From Phycicoccus sp. (GTDB lineage Bacteria; Actinomycetota; Actinomycetes; Actinomycetales; Dermatophilaceae): a stretch of 64,000 nucleotides of DNA. The position numbers were made by a program, and so were the translations under genes. The DNA is taken from the NCBI GenBank assembly GCA_017993715.1, contig JAGOME010000010.1, positions 1 to 64,000 of the forward strand, in the 5' to 3' direction. Under the pieces are notes generated by a model. It did not search any database. It had not been told where the DNA came from and saw only the letters and a list, made by a program, of their open reading frames with translations. Below are positions 12,858 to 17,580 of the stretch, piece after piece (position 1 is the stretch's first letter; each line of letters starts with the position of its first letter).

Positions 12858-13504
12858 GCGCGAGCGTCATCGAGGTCCCCACCCCGGCCGGACTCGGCCG
12901 GATCACGGTGACCCGTCCCCTGGAGAGTGCCGGGCGAGCGCGCGGCCTCCTGGTGCTCGGACACGGGGCGGGTGGCTCCCGGTGGACCAATGACGTCGTG
13001 GCCGTGCAGGACGTCGCCGTCGGGGCGGGGTGGGTCGTCGCACTGGCGGACCAGCCCTGGCGGGTGGCCGGTAAGAAGGTCGCCACCCGGCCACCCGTTC
13101 TCGACCAGGCCTGGCCCGCGCTCGTTGCGGCGGCCCTCGAGGAGGCCGGTGCCGGCGAGCGGGCGGCATTCCCCCTGGTTGTCGGTGGACGCAGCGCTGG
13201 AGCCCGCGTCGCCTGTCGCACCTGCTCCCAGGTCGGCGCGGACGCAGTCCTTGCCTTGAGTTTCCCGCTGCACCCGCCCGGCAAACCGGAGATGTCACGC
13301 GCCGACGAGCTCCGCCTCCCCGTGCTCGACGGCCTCCCGCTGCGGGTCATCCAGGGGCAGCGCGACCCGTTCGGCACCCCCGATGACGTCCGGGCAGAGC
13401 TGTCGGTCCGACATGGCGTCATCGCTGTCGCTGGCACCCACTCGCTGCGCGATCCGTCGGCTGTCGCCACGGCGGCGGGGGAGTGGCTCGCCACACTGGT
13501 CTAG
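12854..13504 (+). CDS. Small alpha/beta hydrolase (KANL3/Tex30-like)
   Basis: 216 residues; GTG start overlaps the preceding TGA (GTGA). The catalytic set is legible: oxyanion region [13 protein letters not shown] (near residue 38), nucleophile elbow GGRSAGAR (near 115), acid in [13 protein letters not shown] and His in AGTHSLR. This is the dienelactone-hydrolase-like group sometimes called Tex30/KANL3-like; substrate unknown. The first strand VEVP-like segment and short length match that group. It is translationally coupled to the SRAP gene, so the two are probably co-expressed, but no functional link is established. Confidence 0.8.
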
Positions 13505-13522
13505 GTCCTTGCGGGCCTGGTG

Positions 13523-13549
13523 GGGAATGCCGTCGCGCGGGTCTACGTT
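13523..13549 (+). promoter_or_regulatory. SigR-type promoter upstream of sigR (autoregulation)
   Basis: GGGAAT at 13523-13528 and GTT at 13547-13549 are separated by exactly 18 bases, matching the GGAAT-N18-GTT consensus known for SigR/SigH-class sigma factors. It lies 117 bases before the sigR ATG. Known members of the family drive their own gene from such a promoter. Confidence 0.65.
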
Positions 13550-13665
13550 CTCCCCACCGACTCGCTCACGCCCTGGTGCGTGACCTCCAGACCGTGGAAA
13601 GCAGGCTGCCTGTGTTCGTGCTCAGCGCAGACTCGACCCTGACCGGCGGGCTAGGGTTGAGGACG

Positions 13666-14328
13666 ATGACTAGTACCCAAACCCCCGCCGAGCCGGCCGA
13701 CGACGTCGCGGCCCCGGCGGCAGTCGACGTCGACGTCGACGTCGCCACGGAGACACCACAGGAGCGCCGAGCCCGGTTCGAGCGCGAGGCGTTGCCTTTG
13801 CTGGATCAGCTGTACTCCGCGGCCCTGCGCACCACTCGCAATCCCTCCGATGCCGAGGACCTGGTCCAGGAGACCTACGCCAAGGCGTGGGCGGCATTCC
13901 ATCAGTACCGTCCCGGGACCAACCTCAAGGCCTGGATGTACCGCATCCTGACCAACTCCTACATCAACACGTACCGCAAGCGTCAGCGCGAGCCCCAGCA
14001 GTCCGACGCCGCCGAGGTGGAGGACTACCAGATCCATCGTGCGGAGTCGCACACGTCCTCGGGTCTGAAGTCTGCTGAGGTGCAGGCGCTGGAGCACCTG
14101 CCCGATACCGAGGTCAAGCGGGCCTTGCAGCAGTTGCCCGAGGAGTTCCGGCTGGCCGTCTACCTCGCCGACGTCGAGGGGTTCGCCTACAAGGAGATCG
14201 CCGAGATCATGGGCACCCCGATCGGCACCGTCATGTCCCGGCTGCACCGAGGACGACGTCAGCTGCGTGAGCTGCTGGCCGACTATGCCCGCGAGCGCGG
14301 TTTCCAGGCCAAGGAGGCGACGTCGTGA
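13666..14328 (+). CDS. sigR: ECF RNA polymerase sigma factor SigR (SigH class), thiol-oxidative stress
   Basis: 220 residues. Region 2 is seen at residues 45-110: [34 protein letters not shown] and [20 protein letters not shown]. Region 4 at about 150-205: [20 protein letters not shown] and [20 protein letters not shown]. The sequence is nearly the SigR/SigH type that directs thioredoxin and mycothiol genes after disulphide stress. An acidic low-complexity N-tail of about 35 residues (VDVDVDVA) precedes region 2. The ATG has a TAGGGT box 8 bases upstream and an autoregulatory SigR-type promoter farther up. The stop overlaps the anti-sigma gene by 4 bases, giving 1:1 coupling. Confidence 0.93.
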
Positions 14329-14594
14329 ACCACGACCACACCGCGCAATCGCATGCGGACTGCTCTGAGGTGCTGCACCGCATCTTTGAGTACCTCGACG
14401 GGGAGCTCGGCACCGAGGACGTCACGCGGATCGCTGGCCATCTGGCCGAGTGCGGTCCCTGCCTCGAACAGCACGACCTCGACCGGACCTTGAAGGCCGT
14501 GATTCGTCGCTCATGCACCGAGGAAGCCGCTCCGGCGGCCTTGCGCCTGTCGATCATTCGCAGCATCACCACGATCCGGATCGACGCCGACTGA
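14325..14594 (+). CDS. rsrA: Zinc-binding redox anti-sigma factor RsrA
   Basis: 89 residues, GTG start overlapping the sigR stop. The ZAS motif is complete: Cys13, His39, Cys43 and Cys46 (HLAECGPC). In the family, zinc held by these residues keeps the protein bound to SigR; oxidation forms a disulphide, releases zinc and frees the sigma factor. One more cysteine occurs near residue 64 (RRSCTEE). Neighbours sigR upstream and the bL37 gene convergent downstream repeat the arrangement of other actinobacteria. Confidence 0.92.
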
Positions 14595-14670: not shown

Positions 14671-14745
14671 TCAGGCGTTGGGCTTGCGGCCGTGGTTGGC
14701 CTTGTTGCCCTTGCGGGAGCGGCGCTTGCGGGCGCGCTTGCTCAT
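14671..14745 (-). CDS. 50S ribosomal protein bL37
   Basis: Only 24 residues: MSKRARKRRSRKG, then NKANHGRKPNA. The composition (half Arg/Lys) and the ANHGxxPNA ending are those of the actinobacterial bL37 protein found in mycobacterial ribosome structures. AAGGAG lies 6 bases before the ATG. The gene is short enough to be skipped by most gene finders. Its place, tail to tail with rsrA, is conserved in this phylum. Confidence 0.85.
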   Translation of the reverse strand: MSKRARKRRSRKGNKANHGRKPNA

Positions 14746-14841
14746 GGGACTCCTTAAAGTTCGTGGTGGATCTTGGGCGACCAGAGGATGGCGATCCTTC
14801 ATCAGGACTCGATGAACCAGTGGCATTCGACCTGATTCGAA

Positions 14842-14871
14842 TTGTCGCACATCGGCCCGGCGTGACAGAAT
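14842..14871 (+). promoter_or_regulatory. Possible promoter of the small secreted peptide gene
   Basis: TTGTCG at 14842-14847 and CAGAAT at 14866-14871 are 18 bases apart, close to the vegetative consensus. They lie 42 bases before the peptide ATG in an unusually AT-rich patch for this window. Confidence 0.35.
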
Positions 14872-14912
14872 TCCGAGTACTTTGGGGAGAGACCCTCTGG
14901 GAGGAGACACAT

Positions 14913-15050
14913 ATGTCCACAATGAAGCGAGCGCTCACCGTCGGTGCGCTTTCGGTTCTCGCGGTTGTCCTGCCGGCCGCTGCGCAGGCTGCAGCACATG
15001 TCAGCAAGCCGGGCGGGATCATCTCGTACATCTGGTCGTGGGGCGGCTAG
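14913..15050 (+). CDS. Small secreted peptide precursor, unknown function
   Basis: 45 residues, family not recognised. Strong evidence for translation: GGGAGGAG sits 7 bases before the ATG. Residues 5-25 form a textbook Sec signal (KR, then ALTVGALSVLAVVLP) with an AQA signal peptidase I site near residue 26. Cleavage would release about 18-20 residues ending in the aromatic segment ISYIWSWGG. The start of the next gene, a membrane HD-domain protein, overlaps its end by 13 bases, so the two are coupled. The layout suggests a peptide sensed by, or guarding, the membrane protein; this is inference. A second in-frame ATG at 14922 could also serve. Confidence 0.6.
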   Translation: MSTMKRALTVGALSVLAVVLPAAAQAAAHVSKPGGIISYIWSWGG

Positions 15051-16267
15051 TCCAGCGCACGCCATCTGAGGGAGCCAGGACCCGCCGCCGATTGCAGGCG
15101 GAGCTCGGGTCCTGGCTCTTTATCTCTGGCCTGCTCGGGGTCGTGTGCGCGACCCTGATCTTCTCCCTGATCCTTGATGGGGGCCCTGGCCTCGTCCCCT
15201 TCCTGGCGGTTCTCGGCGTCTCCGTCGTGGCGTGGGCCGTGGGGTCGGTGGGTCTCGGGGGTCTGAACGTCTCGTTTTTCGGCGTCATCCTGTTGGCTGC
15301 CGCCGTCGTCATCGGCCCCGGCGGGGCGGGCCTGCTCGGGCTGATCGTGGGTGCTCTGGCCCGCGAGGGCCAGCCTTGGCGCGCCCGAGTCTTCAACATG
15401 GGCAACGCCGCGGCCATCGGTTTTGTCGGGGGTTGGGCCTATCGGGCCGCTGGCGGAGTTGTCCCCGAGGCCGGTGACGCCGGGCGCTCCCTCGTGGCTG
15501 AGATGGCGCTGCCTCTGCTGGCCGCGACGGTCGCCCAGGTCGTGGTCAACGTCGTCCTGCTGGCGGCGATCGTCCGCACGGCGACGGGGGTCCCGCTGGG
15601 AGTCCAGCTCCAGCGGATGCTCCCGGCGACCTTGCTCAGCTACACCGGCTACGGGCTGCTGGCCTTCATGCTCATTGTCCTGTGGCTGCCAGCCGGACTA
15701 GGGGTCTTCAGTCTGCTGATGCTCCTGGCGCCGCTGCTCGGGGCGCGCTGGGCGTTCCTGCAGTACGTCGAGGAGCGCGCTGCCCAAGAGGAGACCATTG
15801 AGCTCCTGGTTGCCGCCATCGAGACGCGCAAGCCGACCCTGGCCGGACATGCCGAGCGCGTGGCCGCCCTGTCCGTGCGGATGGGTGAGCACCTGGGCTT
15901 CTCGGCGTCGTCGTTGAGCGACATCCGACGCGCCGGCATGCTGCATGATCTGGGCGTCGTCGCCGCCCCCTCCACGACCGCGACCACGGAGCCGTCGGGT
16001 CCTCTTGCGCTCCTGCGCGGTCTGCCCTTCCTCGCCCCCGCCGCCGAACTCGTGGTCGACCTCTCGCGGCCGGTGCCGACCACCCTGGATGCGGCCGTCG
16101 TCGCGGCAGCCCACCGCTACGACGAACTGACGCAGCCCGCGGCAGGGCATGAACTCGACCGAGACAGCGCCGTGGCGCGTCTAAGTCGTGAGGGTGCCCC
16201 TGACCGCGTCGTCGACGCACTTGTCCGCACCTTGGCGCGCACCCCCGTTGGTGAGGGGCAGCGATGA
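15038..16267 (+). CDS. Membrane protein with C-terminal HD domain (degenerate HD-GYP-like), first of two
   Basis: About 409 residues from GTG 15038; TTG 15092, with a weak AGGA ahead, is an alternative that trims 18 residues. The N-terminal 230 residues hold seven or eight hydrophobic helices. A cytoplasmic HD domain follows: AGHAERVAALSVRMGEHLG (first His, near residue 270) and AGMLHDLGVV (HD pair, near 305). True HD-GYP phosphodiesterases read HDxGK and later HHE...GYP; both the Lys and the GYP box are missing here. So cyclic-di-GMP hydrolysis is doubtful and a sensory or binding role is as likely. It overlaps the peptide gene before it and the second HD gene after it. Confidence 0.7.
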   Translation: MGRLVQRTPSEGARTRRRLQAELGSWLFISGLLGVVCATLIFSLILDGGPGLVPFLAVLGVSVVAWAVGSVGLGGLNVSFFGVILLAAAVVIGPGGAGLLGLIVGALAREGQPWRARVFNMGNAAAIGFVGGWAYRAAGGVVPEAGDAGRSLVAEMALPLLAATVAQVVVNVVLLAAIVRTATGVPLGVQLQRMLPATLLSYTGYGLLAFMLIVLWLPAGLGVFSLLMLLAPLLGARWAFLQYVEERAAQEETIELLVAAIETRKPTLAGHAERVAALSVRMGEHLGFSASSLSDIRRAGMLHDLGVVAAPSTTATTEPSGPLALLRGLPFLAPAAELVVDLSRPVPTTLDAAVVAAAHRYDELTQPAAGHELDRDSAVARLSREGAPDRVVDALVRTLARTPVGEGQR

Positions 16268-17580
16268 GGGACGTGGTCTGGTCCGTCGTGCGCGCCCGGT
16301 GGCTGGTCGTGATTCCGGCGTTGGCCATGCTCGGGATCGCGGCCGCGGCCCTGGCGACACCCGGCGAGACAGCCCAGCTTGCTCGGCACTGGCAGGTCAG
16401 CGTCGTCGTGATCCTGCTGTTGACGGCCGGTGGACTGGCCCAAGTGCGCGTTCCCGGAGGTCGCACCTCGGCGCCGGTCTCCATGGCGACGGCCATCGGC
16501 ACGGTCTGTCTGGGCGCCGTGCACGGGCTCGAACCGTTCGACGTGAGCCTGACCGCCGTCTGTTTGCTCGTCGTGACCGGCCTGCTCCTCGGGCAGGTGC
16601 TGCGGTGGCTCACCCACAGGCCCTTGTCGATCACGCGCTCCTCCGCCCGGGTCACCGGGTTCGGCGTCGCAGCCATTTTGTGGCGCACCGACTGGGGCGA
16701 CCGGGGCAGCCTGTGGGACTGGCAGATGCACCCCGGTACGTCGGTGTGGGCCATCACGCTCGCGATGCTGGGCACGGCCGCCACGGGGGTCCTCACCGAG
16801 ATCGTCCTCAACGGCATCGTGCGGACTCGCACCCGTGGCGGACATCGCGTCGCGGTTCTGCGGGACCAGTTCTCGATCGCCCCCGCCTTGACCCTCTCGG
16901 TCGTCACTGCCGGACCGGTGGCGGCGTTGATCGCGCCGGTCCTCGGGGTCGCGAGTTTCGCCGTCGCCCTCATCCCCATGGTCGTGACCCACGTCGCCGT
17001 GCGGCAGTTCGTAGCTAATCGGGAGACGCACCGCAGCACCATCCTGACGATGTCGCGCCTGACCGAACGCTCCGGTCACACGATGCCCGGGCACCCCGAA
17101 CGGGTTGCCGAGATCAGCGTCACCCTGGGGCGGCGGCTGGGCCTGAGCGATCGAGAACTGCGCGAACTCGAGTTCGCGGCCCTCCTGCACGATGTCGGGC
17201 AGCTCACGTTGGTCGAGCCGATCCCTGCCGGTGCGACGGTGCTGGTCGCTCCCCAGGACCAGCGACTGATCGCGCATGCAGGCGCGATGATCGTGGCGCG
17301 CACGCCGGGGATGCGACCGGTCGCCAACCTTGTGGAGGAGCAGTCTGTCCCGTTCCGCGACGTACGCGAGGACCGCACCGACGTCGCCCTCGGTGCTCGG
17401 ATCATCCGGGTGGCCAACGCTTTCGAGGACTTCACCGAGGGGTCGCGCAGCCCGCGAGATGTGGACTACGCCCTGGAGCGGCTCACCCTCGGGTTGGGCT
17501 ATGAATACGACCCCGAGGTCGTGGACGAGCTCACCGAGGTCGTCCAGGAAGATCAGGCGACAGCCGCCGGAGCCCGGTAA
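16264..17580 (+). CDS. Membrane protein with C-terminal HD domain (degenerate HD-GYP-like), second of two
   Basis: 438 residues, ATG overlapping the previous TGA. The same plan as its neighbour: an N-terminal block of about eight hydrophobic helices to residue 260, then an HD domain. Motifs: MPGHPERVAEISVTLGRRLG (first His near 280) and ALLHDVGQLTLVEPIP (HD near 313). The HD is followed by GQ rather than GK, and the HHE/GYP region is replaced by LVEEQSVPF. Later segments (GARIIRVANAFEDF, then ALERLTLGLGYEYDPEVV) still follow the HD-GYP order, so this is a divergent member. The pair may form a heterodimer. The TAA at 17580 is the last stop before manA. Confidence 0.72.
   Translation: MRDVVWSVVRARWLVVIPALAMLGIAAAALATPGETAQLARHWQVSVVVILLLTAGGLAQVRVPGGRTSAPVSMATAIGTVCLGAVHGLEPFDVSLTAVCLLVVTGLLLGQVLRWLTHRPLSITRSSARVTGFGVAAILWRTDWGDRGSLWDWQMHPGTSVWAITLAMLGTAATGVLTEIVLNGIVRTRTRGGHRVAVLRDQFSIAPALTLSVVTAGPVAALIAPVLGVASFAVALIPMVVTHVAVRQFVANRETHRSTILTMSRLTERSGHTMPGHPERVAEISVTLGRRLGLSDRELRELEFAALLHDVGQLTLVEPIPAGATVLVAPQDQRLIAHAGAMIVARTPGMRPVANLVEEQSVPFRDVREDRTDVALGARIIRVANAFEDFTEGSRSPRDVDYALERLTLGLGYEYDPEVVDELTEVVQEDQATAAGAR

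Follow-up and report, generated by a model that had tools for sequence, protein, structure and literature searches.

What does a very small gene with a strong ribosome site do directly before two membrane proteins that carry HD domains? This question is raised by a locus of Phycicoccus sp. in the window, by which we mean the whole stretch of 64,000 nucleotides that was analysed.

A peptide gene between rsrA and two HD genes

The gene order at this locus is sigR, rsrA, a bL37-like gene on the opposite strand, the peptide gene, HD1, HD2 and manA. NCBIfam assigns the first two as a sigR/sigH-type sigma factor gene (TIGR02947, 2.8e-104; 13483..14328, + strand) and the gene of an RsrA anti-sigma factor (TIGR03988, 7.2e-26; 14325..14594, + strand). 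The antisense neighbour, read from the sequence, encodes a 24-aa basic protein (MSKRARKRRSRKGNKANHGRKPNA; 14671..14745, - strand), which we take to be bL37-like. A sigR-type gene also lies upstream in the relatives sampled, as judged from the annotation of neighbours. A simple pattern for the bL37 linkage matched in 31 of 250 cases, a count that is unreliable.

The peptide gene (14913..15050, + strand) encodes a precursor of 45 aa, MSTMKRALTVGALSVLAVVLPAAAQAAAHVSKPGGIISYIWSWGG, and is preceded by the Shine-Dalgarno sequence ggaggag (14900..14906, + strand), so that the 45-codon ORF reported, together with its strong ribosome site, in a preliminary description of this DNA is indeed present. The signal peptide claimed there was also recovered: reading by eye gives a KR n-region, a hydrophobic core and, by the A-x-A rule, a Sec-type site after residue 26, between AQA and AAH (residues 1-26; 14913..14990, + strand). 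Cleavage at this site would leave 19 residues, which agrees in length with the 18-20 residues proposed as the released tail, but the unit conserved among relatives is smaller, about 5-7 residues round the last Trp. In the window, the C-terminal Trp core is YIWSWGG (15027..15047, + strand), and its position and composition match those of the repeated core of relatives described below. A homology search with the 45-mer in its own genome returned the peptide itself and two weak matches (E 0.04-0.06, residues 2-35) that fall mostly in the signal-peptide part, and no family in Pfam or NCBIfam matched it.

Before the peptide gene of Dermatophilaceae a ATTGTCGCACA-like word recurs, for example at 14838-14852 of the window, and such words before peptide ORFs are perhaps a promoter or regulator site. 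No single conserved promoter motif was established, with GTCGCACA-type and TTGCGATT-type words present in 15-18 of 161 upstream regions.

HD1 (15038..16267, + strand) encodes an HdgA-like membrane HD protein with a degenerate HD-GYP domain and an uncertain GTG start, and HD2 (16264..17580, + strand) encodes an HdgB-like membrane HD protein with an ATG start. The 4-base overlap that had been described between them is exact, since HD1 ends at 16267 and the ATG of HD2 stands at 16264. The 13-base overlap described between the peptide gene and HD1 is permitted by the sequence, which offers a GTG at 15038, but a start at this codon is uncertain, and relatives mostly have an interval of some tens of bases or more between the peptide stop and HdgA. 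A terminator-like hairpin (15069..15121, + strand; -51.5 kcal/mol, z -5.06) sits in the first codons of the GTG-start HD1 reading frame, and given this hairpin HD1 may be attenuated or have its start at another position. In some relatives (L092 and L155), a nickel superoxide dismutase gene is found near hdgAB, downstream of hdgB.

The HD proteins resemble Streptomyces HdgA and HdgB

The preliminary description had seen two tandem membrane HD proteins of like plan, and this is what we find: Pfam detects HD_5/HD in both proteins, with HD domains as the only domains found, and the AlphaFold2 models show multiple transmembrane helices followed by the HD domain. The pair lies directly downstream of sigR-rsrA, the location of HdgA and HdgB in Streptomyces. 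Judged by gene order, domain plan and profile, HD1 and HD2 are relatives of the Streptomyces hdgA and hdgB products. In S. venezuelae, HdgA is a 6TM HD-GYP protein and HdgB a 6TM degenerate HD-GYP protein (vnz24090/vnz24095), and the signal that activates them is thought to have been missing under the test conditions (PMC6205966). The same order, 6TM HD-GYP and then 6TM degenerate HD, is kept among the loci studied here, the genes of HdgA and HdgB overlapping by 4 bases in most of the pairs measured, and the Streptomyces loci that we read likewise have hdgAB directly downstream of rsrA. Unlike the Streptomyces pair, the pair here comes with a peptide gene, and HdgA of the window lacks the GYP motif.

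A broad alignment proved too heterogeneous for scanning the named genomes, and a narrower one was used instead. The HD1-family profile matches Phycicoccus, Terrabacter, Humibacillus, Flexivirga and Serinicoccus among the named relatives, and it also picks the gene beside rsrA in named records of Streptomyces and in actinomycetes with large genomes. The five named genera make Dermatophilaceae (Intrasporangiaceae) the probable family of the window. Within the window's family, 174 of 188 genomes have a match to the A1 profile, as have 124 of 395 in the class. HHExxDGxG[YF]P is kept in 112 of 139 HdgA relatives. In the window, HD1 is without the HHExxDGxGYP motif and HD2, as read, is without it too, and an active HD-GYP c-di-GMP phosphodiesterase was rejected for the window on this ground.

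The models of HD1 and HD2 have mean pLDDT values of 89 and 91, respectively. Residues 48-224 of the HD1 model (15179..15709, + strand) match the ECF S-components RibU, FolT, ThiT, PanT and CbiM with Z 12-14, and residues 35-229 of the HD2 model are S-component-like with Z 10-12.5, scores that are moderate for helical folds. The matches have an rmsd of 3-4 A over 150-190 residues, and several S-components occur in each list. In ECF transporters, the S-components bind the substrate. An S-component-like pocket joined to a phosphodiesterase-type domain would fit a ligand-controlled second-messenger enzyme. Unlike S-components proper, the modelled domains of both HD proteins are fused to an HD output domain, and no ECF module (EcfA/EcfT) is present among the sampled annotated neighbours. 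Distances between cores correlate with distances between the membrane domains (partial r 0.28 for HdgA and 0.34 for HdgB, versus 0.15 for the HD domain), where phylogeny was controlled by the HD domain alone and the values are only partly freed from it; this co-variation of the core with the membrane domains is suggestive only.

The peptide gene is kept upstream of HdgA

A strict Trp-ORF (ATG start, Shine-Dalgarno of at least 5 bases, 13-75 aa, W within the last 12 residues) precedes HdgA in 124 of 226 non-Streptomyces loci, where dinucleotide shuffles lead one to expect 2.5 and the antisense strand gives 3. Curation by eye, which adds weaker ribosome sites, brings the number to about 188 peptides upstream of HdgA. 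This place is taken in nearly all relatives by a tiny ORF with a Trp core at its end, and the linkage of the Trp peptide to hdgAB extends far past the genus of the window. The ORFs are very short and sequence similarity among peptides of different genera is weak, as would be the case for chance ORFs in GC-rich intergenic DNA. The excess over the shuffled and antisense controls, and the ratio of silent to amino-acid differences in the repeats given below, reduce the probability of such an origin to practically nothing.

The preliminary description had named HD genes without the peptide as a finding that would speak against it. In part this is the case: none of 28 Streptomyces hdgAB loci has a strict Trp-ORF, which we count against a signalling function; in this genus the signal would have been lost, moved or replaced by one of another type. 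The Streptomyces genes adjoin sigR-rsrA all the same (L252-L271 and named loci). Eight relatives without an HdgA-type match have no such peptide after sigR-rsrA.

In distant actinobacterial lineages, hydrophobic ORFs of 24-26 aa, mostly with strong ribosome sites, precede HdgA homologues. The distant ORFs end in GGAGGRLG, GGAGWRW, AAARW or NSRYP (L314, L316, L319, L320, L323, L325 and L327-L329).

Selection acts on a short Trp core

The peptide ends of relatives share the core consensus [WVIL]-[SGT]-W-x-[GPD], in which position -2 relative to the last Trp is mostly W, V, I or L, position -1 mostly S, G or T, and position +2 often G or P. The last Trp is followed by 0-2 residues in 140 of the 188 peptides. 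Examples are ISYIWSWGG (window), LAGVWGWGG, FIDVVSWED, PPGVSWT, FTGWSWW, TIIWDPVN and RTWWWTPAAR, and from species to species the cores are hypervariable.

Between 2 and 6 copies of the core are present in each of 24 precursors, for example NIDWA x6, NVEWA x6, GYHNWEPKA x4, GYTWQG x4, SVLTWRP x4 and SRFWWYHSA x2. Successive copies were compared by position, with offsets counted from the last Trp and the Trp itself left out. The core copies (offsets -3 to +1) differ by 41 silent versus 5 amino-acid differences and the flanks by 27 silent versus 127 amino-acid differences. Silent changes in the core and amino-acid changes in the flanks imply purifying selection at the protein level on each copy, with spacers that drift. 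By this comparison of coding sequences, selection is acting on a translated product of about 5 residues. Between species, the pN/pS of the core is 0.66-0.84 in four of five groups and 0.12 in Nonomuraea and kin.

These data bear on the idea of a regulatory leader ORF whose Trp codons, when translated, would control hdgAB through attenuation or ribosome arrest, with no function for the peptide as such. The Trp codons do lie near the stop, some peptides contain WWW, and the window and a few relatives have a strong terminator-like hairpin. Terminator-like sites after the ORF are not enriched, however (30/161 versus 40 expected), and a Trp attenuator across the family was rejected on this count, although the window has its hairpin. 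Moreover, copies inside the precursor, at a long distance from the stop, accept silent changes but keep the residues of the core, many cores have a single Trp, and several leaders are Sec-like. Likeness of the copies within a precursor, with divergence between species, also disfavours an attenuator or arrest peptide, and we regard this explanation as very improbable.

By a simple hydropathy rule, the leaders of 161 precursors divide into 30 that are Sec-like, 35 that are otherwise hydrophobic and 96 that are neither. The precursors with NIDWA x6 and NVEWA x6 have, by eye, a hydrophobic, signal-like N-terminus. The chief rival of a signal is a membrane microprotein that would stay at the membrane and regulate HdgA/HdgB in cis, its Trp core plugging the S-component-like pocket. 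It would account for the tight linkage to hdgAB, for the many single-copy forms in which a short helix, hydrophobic or amphipathic, ends in the core, and for the small hydrophobic ORFs that precede the distant HdgA homologues and have strong ribosome sites. It is difficult to see why a subunit would have identical cores in tandem between variable spacers, though, and some precursors have no hydrophobic segment, so that we consider it unlikely.

Precursors of the Phycicoccus type have two copies of RGW[GDETK]W.. beneath a conserved leader. A conserved leader with hypervariable repeated cores would also suit a multicore natural product, modified (for example by Trp crosslinks) or antimicrobial, with HdgA and HdgB for sensing or self-protection, and W-x-W cores resemble crosslinked peptides. 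Among the sampled neighbours of seven loci, however, neither an enzyme for peptide modification nor a peptide exporter was seen repeatedly, and sigR, rsrA, hdgA and hdgB were the only recurrent partners seen, which makes a natural product improbable.

A proposed peptide signal sensed by HdgA and HdgB

The account that we favour, with modest confidence, is a short secreted peptide signal with HdgA/HdgB-type receptors, for which we infer translation, export, processing, binding and output. The peptide gene would encode the precursor of a Trp-containing signal of about 5-7 residues. Its N-terminal part would be the leader, of Sec type in the window, and YIWSWGG, the core, would act outside the cell, where it is set free or exposed. 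HdgA and HdgB would sense the core via the ligand-binding pocket of the S-component-like domain, and their cytoplasmic HD domain would carry the response, by c-di-GMP hydrolysis where HdgA has an intact HD-GYP motif and probably by protein contacts where both HD proteins are degenerate, as in the window. The preliminary description had read the arrangement as a peptide signal plus sensor pair; conservation, the repeats, the silent differences between cores and the S-component-like fold support that reading, in which the peptide would be translated, secreted and bound. A clear hydrophobic segment is absent from about 60% of the precursors (the 96 of 161 mentioned above), so that a single export route cannot suffice for the whole family, and neither a protease nor an exporter was seen repeatedly among the few neighbours sampled at the seven loci. 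Extended to the phylum, this proposal becomes a species-specific linear peptide pheromone system of Actinomycetota, with Trp cores of about 5-7 residues, S-component-fold receptors and second-messenger control, beside the SigR redox-stress operon; we give it even chances.

If true, peptide signalling would gain a new class and HdgA/HdgB the input that has been missing for them. Known actinobacterial signals are typically small molecules made by enzymes (PMC10075063). Were a ribosomal peptide signal with a candidate receptor pair present in environmental genera and antibiotic producers alike, two questions could be tested directly: which input activates HdgA/HdgB, and do actinobacteria use peptides to communicate? 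As short linear peptides, the predicted signals can be synthesised and added to cultures. We found no description of the Trp peptides in the open-access literature, subscription journals and preprints being mostly outside the search, and novelty is provisional to that extent.

We rate the class as new because the nearest comparison is Rap-Phr and membership of the RRNPP group fails on the receptor. As in Rap-Phr/RRNPP systems, a small propeptide lies by its presumed receptor and has a short active unit near the C-terminus (PMC5199041, PMC10075063). With 45 aa and an adjacent HD1, the window peptide falls within the RRNPP propeptide limits taken from PMC10075063 (10-100 aa in length, at -60 to 400 bp relative to the receptor gene). 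The receptors of the RRNPP group are soluble Firmicutes proteins with TPRs, whereas the presumed receptor here is a membrane S-component-like HD protein of Actinomycetota; the neighbours are membrane HD proteins in which Pfam finds only HD, and RRNPP membership, which implies a cytoplasmic TPR receptor, was rejected. Intragenic duplication of the unit and fast divergence between species are further features shared with Rap-Phr (PMC5199041). Copies of Phr autoinducers are alike within a precursor and divergent between species, and their likeness to fungal pheromones has been noted (PMC5199041). The precursors with NIDWA x6 and NVEWA x6 resemble those of alpha-factor-type fungal pheromones in having a signal sequence, tandem identical cores and variable spacers; unlike these, they are bacterial, share no homology with them and would act on an unrelated type of receptor.

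Some relatives repeat the whole ORF in tandem. Upstream of HdgA in L057, three tandem units of about 150 bp encode a near-same 28-aa peptide that ends in VSIWGWGG. In Actinopolymorpha alba (L170), four small ORFs lie 0.9 kb upstream of HdgA, three with the C-terminus AGKGGYEWG and one with GFGFDWG, and two of the four are near-identical duplicates that include the upstream DNA.
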